A stretch of 45,324 nt of DNA from Anaerolineae bacterium (GTDB lineage Bacteria > Chloroflexota > Anaerolineae > B4-G1 > SLSP01). Below, piece after piece: positions 5,241 through 26,498 of this stretch. A program made the position numbers and the translations under genes. The DNA is taken from positions 1 to 45,324 of the forward strand of contig JALOOJ010000006.1 of NCBI GenBank assembly GCA_025454475.1. Reading direction: 5' to 3'. Below the pieces are notes generated by a model. The model had not been told where the DNA came from. It saw nothing but the letters and a program-made list of their open reading frames with translations, and made no database searches. Each line of letters starts with the position of its first letter. Within the stretch, counting starts at the first letter, position 1.

Positions 5241-5888
5241 CTATGCTTTGGCGCTGGCGGTCACGTAGGCCTGACCGTAGAAGTGGCCCATCACGGCCTG
5301 GTAGAGAGTCATCGTGAAGAAGACGCCAATGCCGCAGGCGATACCGCCCACGATTGAGGCGGCGAGTCCTGCCACGAAGTTGCCGACCAGGACGAGCAGG
5401 TAAGCTCCAGGAGCGGCAGCCACCAACCTCCAGACAGCGCCAAAGGCCAGCCCGTCCTTGATCGAGCCGAAGACCGCAGCCCGCGTAAGTGCTGCGGGCA
5501 GCATAATCCCCAAGGCGATCCCGAAGACCAAGCCCACCAACCCGACACAGATGCCACCGATCATCGCGACGGCCTCGGCTACGTCCGGATCGGCGTTGGA
5601 GGTCAGCGCAGCGATGAGGGCGAAGACGATGGATACCAGCCAGATCGGCGCCGTCCAGACCAGGCTCACGACGATGGCTTTGAGCCCCTGGCCCAGGTAT
5701 GCCCCGAAGTCGACCTCTGGGAGAAGCTCTGTGCTGCCCGTCGCGACGCGACGCGCCACCTCCAACCCCCAGCCCATCACGTAGATCTGGCCCACTAAGG
5801 GGATAAGGCCGATAAGGGCGTTGATGAACACCTTCTTGAGCCAATCGGGGTCCTCGAACGCGAATGTGAATGCCTTGCCGAAGTCCAT
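5241..5888 (-). CDS. DUF4013 domain membrane protein
   Basis: The 215-residue protein starts with the signature FEDPDWLKKVFINALIGLIP and continues VGQIYVMGWGLEVARR, the hallmark of DUF4013 proteins common in Chloroflexota, Actinobacteria and archaea. Several hydrophobic spans follow (about residues 70-100, 115-145, 150-185), giving a polytopic inner-membrane protein. The function of the family is not known. A promoter TTGCAT-17-TATAAT lies upstream on the minus strand, and GAAGGAG precedes ATG 5888. It is divergent from the GH4 gene across a gap holding a palindromic element. Confidence 0.85.
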   Translation of the reverse strand: MDFGKAFTFAFEDPDWLKKVFINALIGLIPLVGQIYVMGWGLEVARRVATGSTELLPEVDFGAYLGQGLKAIVVSLVWTAPIWLVSIVFALIAALTSNADPDVAEAVAMIGGICVGLVGLVFGIALGIMLPAALTRAAVFGSIKDGLAFGAVWRLVAAAPGAYLLVLVGNFVAGLAASIVGGIACGIGVFFTMTLYQAVMGHFYGQAYVTASAKA

Positions 5889-5929: not shown

Positions 5930-5958
5930 ATTATACCGAGGCTCAGAAAAGGATGCAA
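5930..5958 (-). promoter_or_regulatory. Promoter for the DUF4013 gene
   Basis: On the minus strand, -35 TTGCAT (5953-5958) is followed after 17 bp by a perfect -10 TATAAT (5930-5935). The leader is about 35 nt. Confidence 0.8.
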
Positions 5959-5991: not shown

Positions 5992-6058
5992 CTGAGACCT
6001 TTGAGCTCACCGTCTCAGGATGCAGGCTGCACGAGGGGAGCTCAAAGGTCCTCCGGAC
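5992..6058. repeat. Imperfect palindromic element, copy 1
   Basis: The arms GACCTTTGAGCTC (5996-6008) and GAGCTCAAAGGTC (6038-6050) are perfect complements around a 29-nt centre, followed by CTCCGGA. A second, competing pairing is available: CTGAGAC (5992-5998) with GTCTCAG (6012-6018). The reverse complement of this element matches the copy at 26430-26498 across both arms and the flanking TCCGGAG. It lies between two divergent promoters, so it could be an operator or activator site for both genes. Confidence 0.85.
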
Positions 6059-6064
6059 TTAGGG

Positions 6065-6092
6065 TTGCAGCCAACAGCATTCGGCCTACACT
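6065..6092 (+). promoter_or_regulatory. Probable promoter for the GH4 gene
   Basis: TTGCAG (6065-6070) and TACACT (6087-6092) are separated by 16 bp. The match is moderate, but the position just upstream of the gene and just downstream of the palindromic element is suitable. Confidence 0.55.
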
Positions 6093-6128: not shown

Positions 6129-7457
6129 ATGACCAAAATCGCTTTCATCGGTGCCGGAAGCTTCGGGTTCACGCGCAGCCTCGTGCGGGATATCCTGACC
6201 TTTCCATTGCTTGAGGACGCAACGCTTTCGCTGATGGACGTCGACCCTGAGCGCCTGGAGTTCTCGCGCCGGGCGGTGCAACGAATCGTGGATCAGGGCG
6301 GGTATCCCGCAAAGGTCGAGGCCACGCTTGATCGCGTTGAGGCGCTGACGGGCGCGGACGCCGTGTTGTGCACGATCCTGGCCGGTGGGGTCGATGTCTG
6401 GCAGCACGATATCCTGATCCCGAAGAAGTACGGCATTGACATCAACGTCGGCGATACGCGCGGCGTTTCGGGCATCTTCCGTGCGCTGCGTACGATCCCG
6501 GTGATGCTCGGTATCGTCAAGGACATGGAGCAGGTATGCCCCGGCGCGACGCTTCTCAACTACACCAATCCGATGGCGATGCTGTGCCGGGCGATGCAGC
6601 GCGAGTCCTTCATCCAGCTCACGGGTCTCTGCCACAGCGTGCAGGGCACGGCGATGATGTTGGCGCACTGGATCGGCGCCCCGTATGAGGAGGTGACCTA
6701 TACCTGCGCGGGCATCAACCACATGGCCTGGTACCTCGACTACAGGTGGAATGGCAAGGACGCCTACCCGCTGATCCGCAAGGCTGTGGAGGAGAACGAG
6801 GCGGTCTACAACGAGGAACAGGTCCGCAATGAGATGTTCCTGCACTTTGGGTATTACATCACCGAGTCGAGCGGCCATAACTCGGAGTACAACTGGTGGT
6901 TCCGCAAACGCCCCGACCTGATCGAGAAGTACTGTACGCACGGCACGGGATGGAACCCCGGCATCTACGCCTACATCCTTGACGAGTACCGCAAGCGCGG
7001 CGACTCGTGGCAGAAGGACATCCTTGCGTGGCTCGACGATCCGGACGCGCTGAACCTGGCGCGCGGCCACGAGTATGCAGCCTATATCATCAACGCGCTG
7101 CAGGGCGGCGAGCCGTTCCAGTTCAACGGCAACGTGCCCAACACAGGCCTGATCACGAACCTGCCCGAGGGCGCGTGTGTCGAGGTGCCGGTCTATGCCG
7201 ACAGGGGTGGCTTGCACTCGATTCATGTCGGTGCGCTGCCTGCGTCTGTGGCGCCGCTCAACCAGATCACCGTGGCCTCGGAGGAGATGGCCGTGCAAGC
7301 CGCCCTCACGGGCGACCCGACGCTTGTTTTCCAGTCGATCGCGTATGATCCGCTCACCGCGGCTATGCTGTCGCTGGCGGAGATCAAGCAGATGGTGAAC
7401 GAGATGCTGGCGCAGAACGCTGCTTATTTGCCGCAGTTCGGCAAGCTGGAGGCCTAA
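6129..7457 (+). CDS. GH4 family alpha-galactosidase/alpha-glucosidase-type glycosidase
   Basis: GH4 enzymes are cytoplasmic, NAD- and manganese-dependent glycosidases that work by redox elimination. The Rossmann motif [15 protein letters not shown] is at the start, [11 protein letters not shown] follows near 143-153, and the metal ligands appear as Cys168 in GLCHS and His198 in GINHMAW. The length of 442 residues fits. The sequence is closest in style to alpha-galactosidase (MelA-like) members rather than 6-phospho-glycosidases, but this is not certain. ATG 6129 follows GGAGGT; an in-frame GTG at 6111 is less likely. The LAL regulator begins 17 bases after its stop, suggesting co-transcription. 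Confidence 0.92.
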
Positions 7458-7474: not shown

Positions 7475-10321
7475 GTGGCGATTGAGAGTGTGTTGCGTAC
7501 CCGTCTGGTCGTCCCGCCCCTCCGCCCGGAGTGGGTGGCGCGTCCTGGCCTGCTCGCCCGGCTGGATGGTGTTCGTCAGCCGGGCGGGCGGTTAGCGCTG
7601 CTCTCAGCGCCGGCTGGGTATGGCAAGACTGCGCTGGCGAGCGCGTGGGCGCGCGATCTGGTGGCTCAGGGCTGGGCTATCGCGTGGGTCTCGCTGTCGC
7701 AGCGCGAGCGTGACTTCTCTCGTTTCATCCACTATCTAGCCGCTGCGCTCGGTACCTGTGGCATCGAGCCCCCTCCGGACATGCTGTTACCCCTGGGCTC
7801 GCCGCGCCCACCGGCGATCGACGAGGTGCTGACGCCGCTTCTGAACCAGGTGAACGCTGCCCTGGAGGGGGAGTCAGGTGACGCGTGCGCGGTCGACGGC
7901 CTGGTACTGTTGCTCGACGACTATCATCTGGCGGCTGCTCCGCGGGTTCAGGAGGCGGTCGCCTTCTTGCTGGAGGCCTTACCGGCGCGGATGCGCATCG
8001 CCTTAGCGACGCGCGTTGACCCGGCCCTGCCGCTGGCGCGGATGCGTGCGCGCGGCGAGCTGGTCGAGCTGCGAGCCACGGACCTGCGTCTCTCCGCTGA
8101 CGAGACCGCTGTGCTGCTGGCCAGCGCCGGGCTGGGCCACCTTCCGCCGGATGCGTGCGCGACGCTGGCGGCGCGAACCGAGGGTTGGCCCGCCGGCCTG
8201 TACCTGGCGGCGCTGTCCCTCCAGGGGCACGCGCGACCGACCGCGCTCGTGGGGGATCTGGCGGACACGCCCCGCTACCTGCTCGATTTCCTGCTCGAGG
8301 AGGTGCTCGAGCAGCAGCCGGCGCGCGTCCAGCAGTTCCTCCTCGCGACTTCGGTGTTGGATCAACTGAGTGCACCGCTCTGTGAAGGACTGGCTGATCT
8401 TCTGGCGACCGTGCCGGTCTCGCCGGCGAACCGGCAGTCGCCGGCGAACCGGCAGTCGCCGGCGAACCGGCAGTCGCCGGCGACTGCCAGTTCATCGGCG
8501 ACTGCCGATGACGCGGCACCGCCAGGGCCTGGCGCGGCGGCACTTCTGGCCTACCTGGAGTCGGCCAACCTGTTCCTTCTGCCGATGGATGAGGGCCGTA
8601 TCTGGTACCGCTATCACCAGCTTTTCCGCGATCTGTTGGTGAATCACCTTACGCAACGCGCCCCAGCGCTGCTGGCCGAATTGCACCGCCGGGCGAGCGC
8701 CTGGTATGAGGCCGAGGGTCTCGTGACCGAGGCGGTGGACCACGCCTTTGCCTCGCGCGATCTGGAGCGGGTTGCAGCGCTCCTGCTGAACCACGGAGAG
8801 GCCCTGCTCATGCGCAGTGAGACCGACGCCATGCGTGACTGGCTGTCGGCGCTTCCCGCATCGGTGTTCGTGGATCACCCGATGCTCGAAGTCTGGTATG
8901 CAGCCGCCCTGCTGTTCAGCGGTCAGCATGCCGATGAGGTGCGCCGTCATCTGGTGCAGGCTTCTTCAGGCGAGCCTTCAGCCGATGTCGCCGGCGCGAG
9001 CGCCGTCTTTCAGTCGATCATCGCGCTGCTCCAGGGCGATCCGGTGGGGGCTGCGGCTGAAGCGCGGCGGGGGCTGGCGCTGCTGCCCGAGGGCGGCGGC
9101 CTGGTGCGACTTCTCGGACAGAACAACCTCGGGATGGCCCAGATGGTCGCCGGCGATCTGACCGCCGCCGTGGCGACCTATGACCGGCTGCTCGCTGACG
9201 CGGGGCCTGATGGCCCGGTCGCAATGGTGCTTAGCCCGCTGGCGAACCTTGGTGGCCTTGCGATGATCCGTGGGGAGTTGCATCGCGCCGCGGCGCTTTA
9301 CGGGCGCGCTCTGGAGATCGGTCGCGATCGGCAGGGGCGACTCCTCACTGTGGCTGGCAAGGCACTGATGGGGCTGGGTGAGGTGGAGCGTGAGCAGGAC
9401 CATCTGGAGGCCGCCGCTGGGCATCTCGAGGAGGGCATTGCGTTGACGCGGCGGCTCATCGAGATGGGTGCTGTGGTCGGCTACGTCTCGCTCATGCGGA
9501 CGCGACAGGCACAGGGCGATGCCGCGGGTGCTGAGCAAGCTATTGGCGAGGCGCGCCGCATTGCGCTCCGCTCGCGCGTAACGGATCTCGACGATCGTTT
9601 CGTCGACTGCTTCGAGGCGTGGCTCTGGGTCCTGCAGGGCAACCTCGAGGCGCTGCGCCGCTGGGTGGCGGGGCCCGCGCGACGCCTCACTGAGGCCGTG
9701 ACCGGTGGTTGGCAGACGGCAGAGTTTCGTGAGCTGGCCGAGCTGATGCTGGCCCGCGCCCGCCTCGCGCTGGGAGAGCCTGAAGCAGCTCTGACGCTGC
9801 TGACGTCGCTGGAACCCGCGGTGGTGCATCGTCAGCGCATGCGTCGTGCGCTGGACATCTGGGTTCTGCAGGCGCTGGCGCTCCAGCAGTTGGGCCGAGG
9901 CGAGGCTGCGCTGGCGCCTATGGCCCGAGCCCTGGCCTTCGGCGAGTCTGAGGGTTTTGTGCGCGTCTTCGTCGATGACGGGCCGCCGCTAGCACGCTTG
10001 CTCTATGCGTGCATGGAGCAAGGCATCGCGTCCGCCTATGCCGCGCGGCTGCTCACGCGCTTCACTGGGGAAGCTGCCCCGGGCCACCGGCCGCCGGGGC
10101 CGGCGCCGAGTGACCTGGTCGAGGCTCTCAGTGTCCGGGAGCTGGAGGTCCTGGCGCTGATCGCGGAGGGCCTCACGAATGGCGAAATCGCGCGCAAGCT
10201 GGTGCTTGCCCTGAGCACGGTGAAGGGCCATACCTCCAACATCTATAGCAAACTCGGCGTCAGCACCCGCACGCAGGCCGTCGTGCGCGCCCGCGCCCTC
10301 GGTCTCCTGCAGCCACTCTAG
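7475..10321 (+). CDS. MalT-like LuxR-family (LAL) transcriptional regulator
   Basis: The 948-residue protein has the LAL layout. An N-terminal STAND-type NTPase carries Walker A SAPAGYGKT (44-52) and Walker B LVLLLDDYH; a winged-helix region and a long TPR-like alpha-helical region follow, ending in a LuxR helix-turn-helix (LSVRELEVLALIAEGLTNGEIARKL is split here as LSVRELEVLALIAEG and LTNGEIARKL). Such proteins are ATP-switched activators responding to a small ligand, as MalT does to maltotriose. The start is GTG 7475 behind AGGTGG. An in-frame 18-nt repeat array inserts SPANRQ units at about residues 316-339, between the NTPase and helical regions. Location after GH4 suggests, but does not prove, control of sugar genes. 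Confidence 0.9.
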   Translation: MAIESVLRTRLVVPPLRPEWVARPGLLARLDGVRQPGGRLALLSAPAGYGKTALASAWARDLVAQGWAIAWVSLSQRERDFSRFIHYLAAALGTCGIEPPPDMLLPLGSPRPPAIDEVLTPLLNQVNAALEGESGDACAVDGLVLLLDDYHLAAAPRVQEAVAFLLEALPARMRIALATRVDPALPLARMRARGELVELRATDLRLSADETAVLLASAGLGHLPPDACATLAARTEGWPAGLYLAALSLQGHARPTALVGDLADTPRYLLDFLLEEVLEQQPARVQQFLLATSVLDQLSAPLCEGLADLLATVPVSPANRQSPANRQSPANRQSPATASSSATADDAAPPGPGAAALLAYLESANLFLLPMDEGRIWYRYHQLFRDLLVNHLTQRAPALLAELHRRASAWYEAEGLVTEAVDHAFASRDLERVAALLLNHGEALLMRSETDAMRDWLSALPASVFVDHPMLEVWYAAALLFSGQHADEVRRHLVQASSGEPSADVAGASAVFQSIIALLQGDPVGAAAEARRGLALLPEGGGLVRLLGQNNLGMAQMVAGDLTAAVATYDRLLADAGPDGPVAMVLSPLANLGGLAMIRGELHRAAALYGRALEIGRDRQGRLLTVAGKALMGLGEVEREQDHLEAAAGHLEEGIALTRRLIEMGAVVGYVSLMRTRQAQGDAAGAEQAIGEARRIALRSRVTDLDDRFVDCFEAWLWVLQGNLEALRRWVAGPARRLTEAVTGGWQTAEFRELAELMLARARLALGEPEAALTLLTSLEPAVVHRQRMRRALDIWVLQALALQQLGRGEAALAPMARALAFGESEGFVRVFVDDGPPLARLLYACMEQGIASAYAARLLTRFTGEAAPGHRPPGPAPSDLVEALSVRELEVLALIAEGLTNGEIARKLVLALSTVKGHTSNIYSKLGVSTRTQAVVRARALGLLQPL
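8420..8490 (+). repeat. In-frame 18-nt tandem repeat array inside the LAL gene
   Basis: The unit TCGCCGGCGAACCGGCAG occurs three times exactly (8420-8437, 8438-8455, 8456-8473), followed by a variant 17-nt copy (8474-8490). It encodes SPANRQ repeats. The junction contains a 20-bp perfect palindrome (8469-8488), and a short hairpin CATCGGC-GACT-GCCGATG follows at 8493-8510. The core GGCGACTG/CAGTCGCC is shared with the palindrome at 727-764. Confidence 0.95.
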
Positions 10322-26429: not shown

Positions 26430-26498
26430 CGTCCGGAGGACCTTTGAGCTCTCTCTGGCCAGCAGGCGCCTTGTTGAGCCGAAGAGCTCAAAGGTCTA
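26430..26498. repeat. Imperfect palindromic element, copy 2
   Basis: The arms GACCTTTGAGCTC (26439-26451) and GAGCTCAAAGGTC (26484-26496) are perfect complements around a 32-nt centre, preceded by GTCCGGAG. In reverse complement it matches the element at 5992-6058 in arms and one flank, while the centre differs. It lies between divergent genes, 19-21 bases upstream of the -35 of the plus-strand promoter. Confidence 0.85.

Follow-up and report, generated by a model that had tools for sequence, protein, structure and literature searches.

A REP-like family of dispersed, tagged palindromes, probably non-autonomous mobile hairpins, in an Anaerolineae genome

The palindrome that we describe, copy 1, lies between a DUF4013 protein gene (5241..5888, minus strand; Pfam PF13197) and a gene for a family 4 glycosyl hydrolase, GH4 (6129..7457, plus strand; Pfam PF02056/PF11975). 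These positions refer to the window, the whole stretch of 45,324 nucleotides analysed, taken from an Anaerolineae MAG of 4.8 Mb in 369 contigs (labelled G000). Copy 1 consists of a left arm, GACCTTTGAGCTC (5996..6008, plus strand), a variable centre of 29 nt (6009..6037), where the long form of the element usually has 32 nt, and a right arm on the minus strand (6038..6050), followed by a one-sided, unpaired tag, CTCCGG (6051..6056, plus strand), for which the family consensus is TTCYGG. Copy 2 carries the same arm at 26439..26451 (plus strand), a centre of 32 nt (26452..26483) and the other arm at 26484..26496 (minus strand), and its CTCCGG tag (26433..26438) reads outward on the minus strand, so that it is inverted relative to copy 1. 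The 13-bp inverted arms that a sequence-only reading had noticed in two distant gaps are thus exact in both copies. Within the window the 13-nt arm occurs five times with up to two mismatches, against 1.0 expected, and an inverted-repeat finder reports copy 1 as 94% identical over 16 nt (one mismatch) and copy 2 as 100% over 14 nt. When copy 2 is inverted the two are 78% alike over ~64 nt, a match that takes in the CTCCGG to the right of copy 1 and the CCGGAG to the left of copy 2. On both strands, the two copies fold better than dinucleotide shuffles (z −3.1 to −5.5). A competing pair in copy 1, CTGAGAC (5992-5998) with GTCTCAG (6012-6018), together spanning 5992..6018, had been suggested as an alternative RNA fold; the pair is present but private to copy 1, being absent from the other long copies. 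Templating of the centre of copy 1 from its own flank by hairpin-templated repair was considered and was not significant.

Copy 1 is flanked by two likely −10 boxes, a TATAAT for the DUF4013 gene (5930..5935, minus strand) and a TACACT for the GH4 gene (6087..6092, plus strand), the second within a stretch conserved in the sister species G003. The orthologous locus of G003 has the same two genes and keeps both boxes (as ATTATA and GCCTACACTCC) in a gap that is ~85 bp shorter and has no palindrome; neither promoter flanking copy 1 therefore needs the element. The promoters proposed from the sequence hold as far as these conserved −10 boxes go, but neither box has a good −35 hexamer and a sigma-70 scan lists neither of them. 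Standing upstream of both likely promoters, copy 1 is probably transcribed from neither, and in all likelihood it rides passively between them, with no specific role. Because the intergenic DNA has diverged, the insertion junctions at copy 1 are unreadable, and the difference between the two species may reflect loss in G003 as an alternative to gain in G000.

What had been taken for a two-copy element is one of a family of about 50 copies in G000, as found with covariance models. Exact matches to the 13-mer arm number 41 in the genome, each inversely paired with another or opposite a near match, and a pattern search gave 29 matches, compared with none for the reversed control pattern; an inside-out arrangement of the arms was seen as a single variant only. 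By the same models G004, a sister species, has about nine copies, G003 about six and G002 a few, and G001 has a longer, putative relative of ~145 nt. Beyond its own genome, the exact pattern occurs in one contig among the genome contigs searched, from a sister Anaerolineae MAG, and in none of the viral contigs searched. As far as searched, the family is confined to the genus, and six sources gave no Rfam match at the gathering score. Less closely related genomes within the bacterial family have hairpins with arms AGACCTCNGAGGTCT that carry no TTCYGG-like tag, and their kinship to the palindromes is uncertain. The ~145-nt repeat of G001 (L220-L227), possibly a longer kind of the same palindrome, shares its outer arms, is predicted to fold into a branched structure, has conserved flanks (GTGCGTCAGATTTCCGCAT and GAGGCGA) and sits mostly in wide intergenic gaps.

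Across the family the inverted arms are 13-14 nt long and the copies come in two sizes, one of ~33 bp with a loop of 5-7 nt and one of 58 bp with a centre of 32 nt. Of 39 copies, 24 have 5-7 nt between the arms and 12 have 29-33 nt; arm centres are ~18-20 bp apart in 24 of the 39 and 45 bp apart in most others (range 18-46 bp). The spacing of 42 bp in copy 1, which had been read as four helical turns, is thus correct for that copy (it is 45 bp in copy 2) but is no rule for the family. In the short form 98.5% of cells are paired, with 10 double, compensating changes against 2.9 in shuffles; in the long form the figures are 95.3% and 4 against 1.0. Judging from these compensating substitutions in the arms, the palindrome is a structured element. 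TT stands at one foot only in 28 of 38 copies (19.2 expected, P 0.005), and the foot opposite the tag is weakly T-A/C-G. Since the consensus TTCYGG came from the very copies counted here, it was then tried on held-out ones: 8 of 13 further copies are tagged in G000 and 7 of 10 in G004, compared with 3.6% of control positions nearby, and a tag at both feet is seen in one held-out copy of G000 and in none of G004. The length of the 32-nt centre is kept in G000, G003 and most copies of G004, and its sequence, oriented by the tag, is 47% alike against 35% when shuffled, the reverse orientation being no worse. No U-tract follows the stem on its 3' side; the consensus there is TTCYGG.

Genes around the copies were called with a home-made hexamer-based finder. 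In the first batch of loci, 42 of 43 paired matches were intergenic. Since the loci had been selected for holding copies, expected shares were taken from the same neighbourhoods, with gaps weighted by length. Among 36 mapped copies, 21 lie in tandem gaps and 10 in convergent gaps (7.5% expected; p 2e-4), while divergent gaps hold five, including both copies of the window, where 24.5% would be expected. In the tandem gaps 18 of 21 copies are closer to the upstream stop, at a median of 14 nt compared with 52 nt to the next start, and the TGA inside the arm serves as the stop codon of several genes (GAC CTT TGA). The copies are therefore found mostly behind stop codons and not in divergent gaps, the REP-type distribution that the sequence-only reading had itself named as contrary to a site acting between divergent promoters; of its proposal of a protein-binding or structured site, the structure stands and the divergent-promoter operator does not.

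Three positions are common to G000 and G003 (L048/L209, L050/L210, L065/L214), and there the arms have changed in step. Some copies must therefore be old, and not all are recent insertions. Where the sister species lack the palindrome, a strong hairpin is mostly absent from orthologous tandem gaps, while orthologous convergent gaps often hold strong but unrelated hairpins (L040, L052, L054, L059). These few loci suggest that a site at which a 3'-end hairpin is already at home tolerates the repeat or makes use of it. Two other hairpin families were seen in these genomes. One, with arms like GTGCCGGGGAC/GTCCCCGGCAC, occurs in G000 and G003 (L042 ~8466-8520, L049 2659-2802, L058 511-730, L062 8416-8705, L069 3120-3489 and, in G003, L141); its G003 copy has a T tail and lies at a site orthologous to one that holds a GACCTTTGAGCTC copy. 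The other, with arms like ACCCTCGCAAGGT (L054 2591-2884, L055 5657-5743, L075 1238-1320 and, in G003, L143), is repeated within one G003 gap.

A search for an enzyme that might move the palindromes covered 30 Y1_Tnp (RAYT-like) loci across the bacterial family, in MAGs that are incomplete, and neither covariance model found a credible copy there. Both Y1_Tnp genes of G000 are flanked by other REP-like palindromes, each by its own, different ones (GTAGCCCGGCGAT... at L107, contig C332; GCGGGCAAGGATGCCCGC at L108, contig C61), and on the evidence of these loci a RAYT partner was rejected. In G002 there are 26 Y1_Tnp matches, several of them broken by stops, compared with one or two in other species of the genus, which looks like an IS200/RAYT-like expansion. 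Direct repeats of 2-9 bp, such as target-site duplication would leave, are not in excess at the copies, and there is no clean insertion boundary. Proteins encoded between close copies were inspected by eye for a transposase and looked ordinary (TPR repeats, sugar isomerase-like, GH4-like, RecQ-like helicase). At one locus (L057 3800-6400) a gene for a TPR protein stands between two copies ~620 bp apart, with no transposase there.

Taken together, we are fairly confident that copy 1 belongs to a REP-like family of dispersed palindromic repeats, probably non-autonomous mobile hairpins. The element would have spread by way of a single-stranded or replication-borne intermediate, either moved by an enzyme that the search did not turn up or copied through single-stranded replication intermediates, and would survive where it is harmless, directly behind stop codons. 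Once transcribed, the hairpin would serve as a mark or a shield for mRNA 3' ends or aid termination between convergent genes, and in convergent gaps it is perhaps used as a 3'-end hairpin; simple intrinsic termination would be weak, because no U-tract follows the stem. One may speculate further, and with considerable doubt, that these palindromes represent a third tagged superfamily (TTC-tagged) in Anaerolineae, mobilised by a non-RAYT enzyme, that takes over gene 3' ends bearing unrelated hairpins in sister species and drifts between species by compensating changes.

The placement at 3' ends also fits an unlikely alternative, in which the copies are bidirectional terminators or mRNA 3'-end hairpins, made alike in sequence by recombination or conversion, and function rather than mobility sets where they lie. 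Strong unrelated hairpins in the convergent gaps of sisters, at the four loci named above, and the compensating changes at shared sites agree with it; but the stem has no U-tract behind it, copies occur in tandem gaps whose sister counterparts have no strong hairpin as well as in divergent gaps (copy 1 among them), and a terminator needs neither a tag nor a centre of 32 nt. Inverted termini, dispersal and the lack of coding capacity would suit a MITE moved through its terminal inverted repeats by a classical DDE transposase, which we hold to be very unlikely given the absence of target-site duplications and the fact that all arms form close pairs, none flanking a gene-sized element, even if a fragmented assembly could miss an insertion sequence. 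Least probable by far is an operator for a dimeric or looping regulator: both copies of the window do stand in divergent gaps with likely −10 boxes, but only 5 of 36 copies are so placed, their spacing is bimodal, the genes adjoining them are unrelated, and the promoters of copy 1 are present in the sister species G003 without the element.

A false regulatory lead is thereby removed, and the phylum, in which few such families have been described, gains a tagged palindromic one for which no RAYT was found. Covarying arms together with positions shared with a sister species make the family a usable case in which to ask by what route palindromic repeats spread when they have no dedicated transposase, and whether 3'-end hairpins are recruited from them. 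It is apparently undescribed, with no Rfam match and no counterpart in the open-access literature covered by a partial survey.

Among known systems, intrinsic terminators resemble the family in being strong hairpins right behind stops, some of them where sisters bear other hairpins, but the Anaerolineae palindromes have no U-tract, share their sequence among unlinked sites and are also found upstream of promoters. Unlike MITEs they lack a 2-9 bp target-site duplication, and unlike divergent-promoter operators they are neither concentrated in divergent gaps nor fixed in spacing. Like REPINs (PMC3116915), they are hairpins scattered over intergenic sites, in which a conserved oligomer and its inverted partner enclose a spacer that is less conserved; they differ in having ~50 copies and in that no RAYT flanked by the repeat was found. 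The REP repeats tagged with GTAG or CGTC are small palindromes whose tag, at one of the two ends, is left unpaired. They lie outside genes, for the most part in convergent or co-directional gaps and near 3' ends, where they sometimes supply the stop codon, and the CGTC type has no dedicated transposase (PMC3733652). The Anaerolineae family differs from both in its TTCYGG-like tag, neither GTAG nor CGTC, and in its stem of 13-14 bp with loops of 5-7 and ~32 nt, a distinction drawn from the described features of those repeats. As a short, dispersed, intergenic palindrome with an unpaired tag at one foot and the same placement, it behaves like these REP repeats (PMC3733652).
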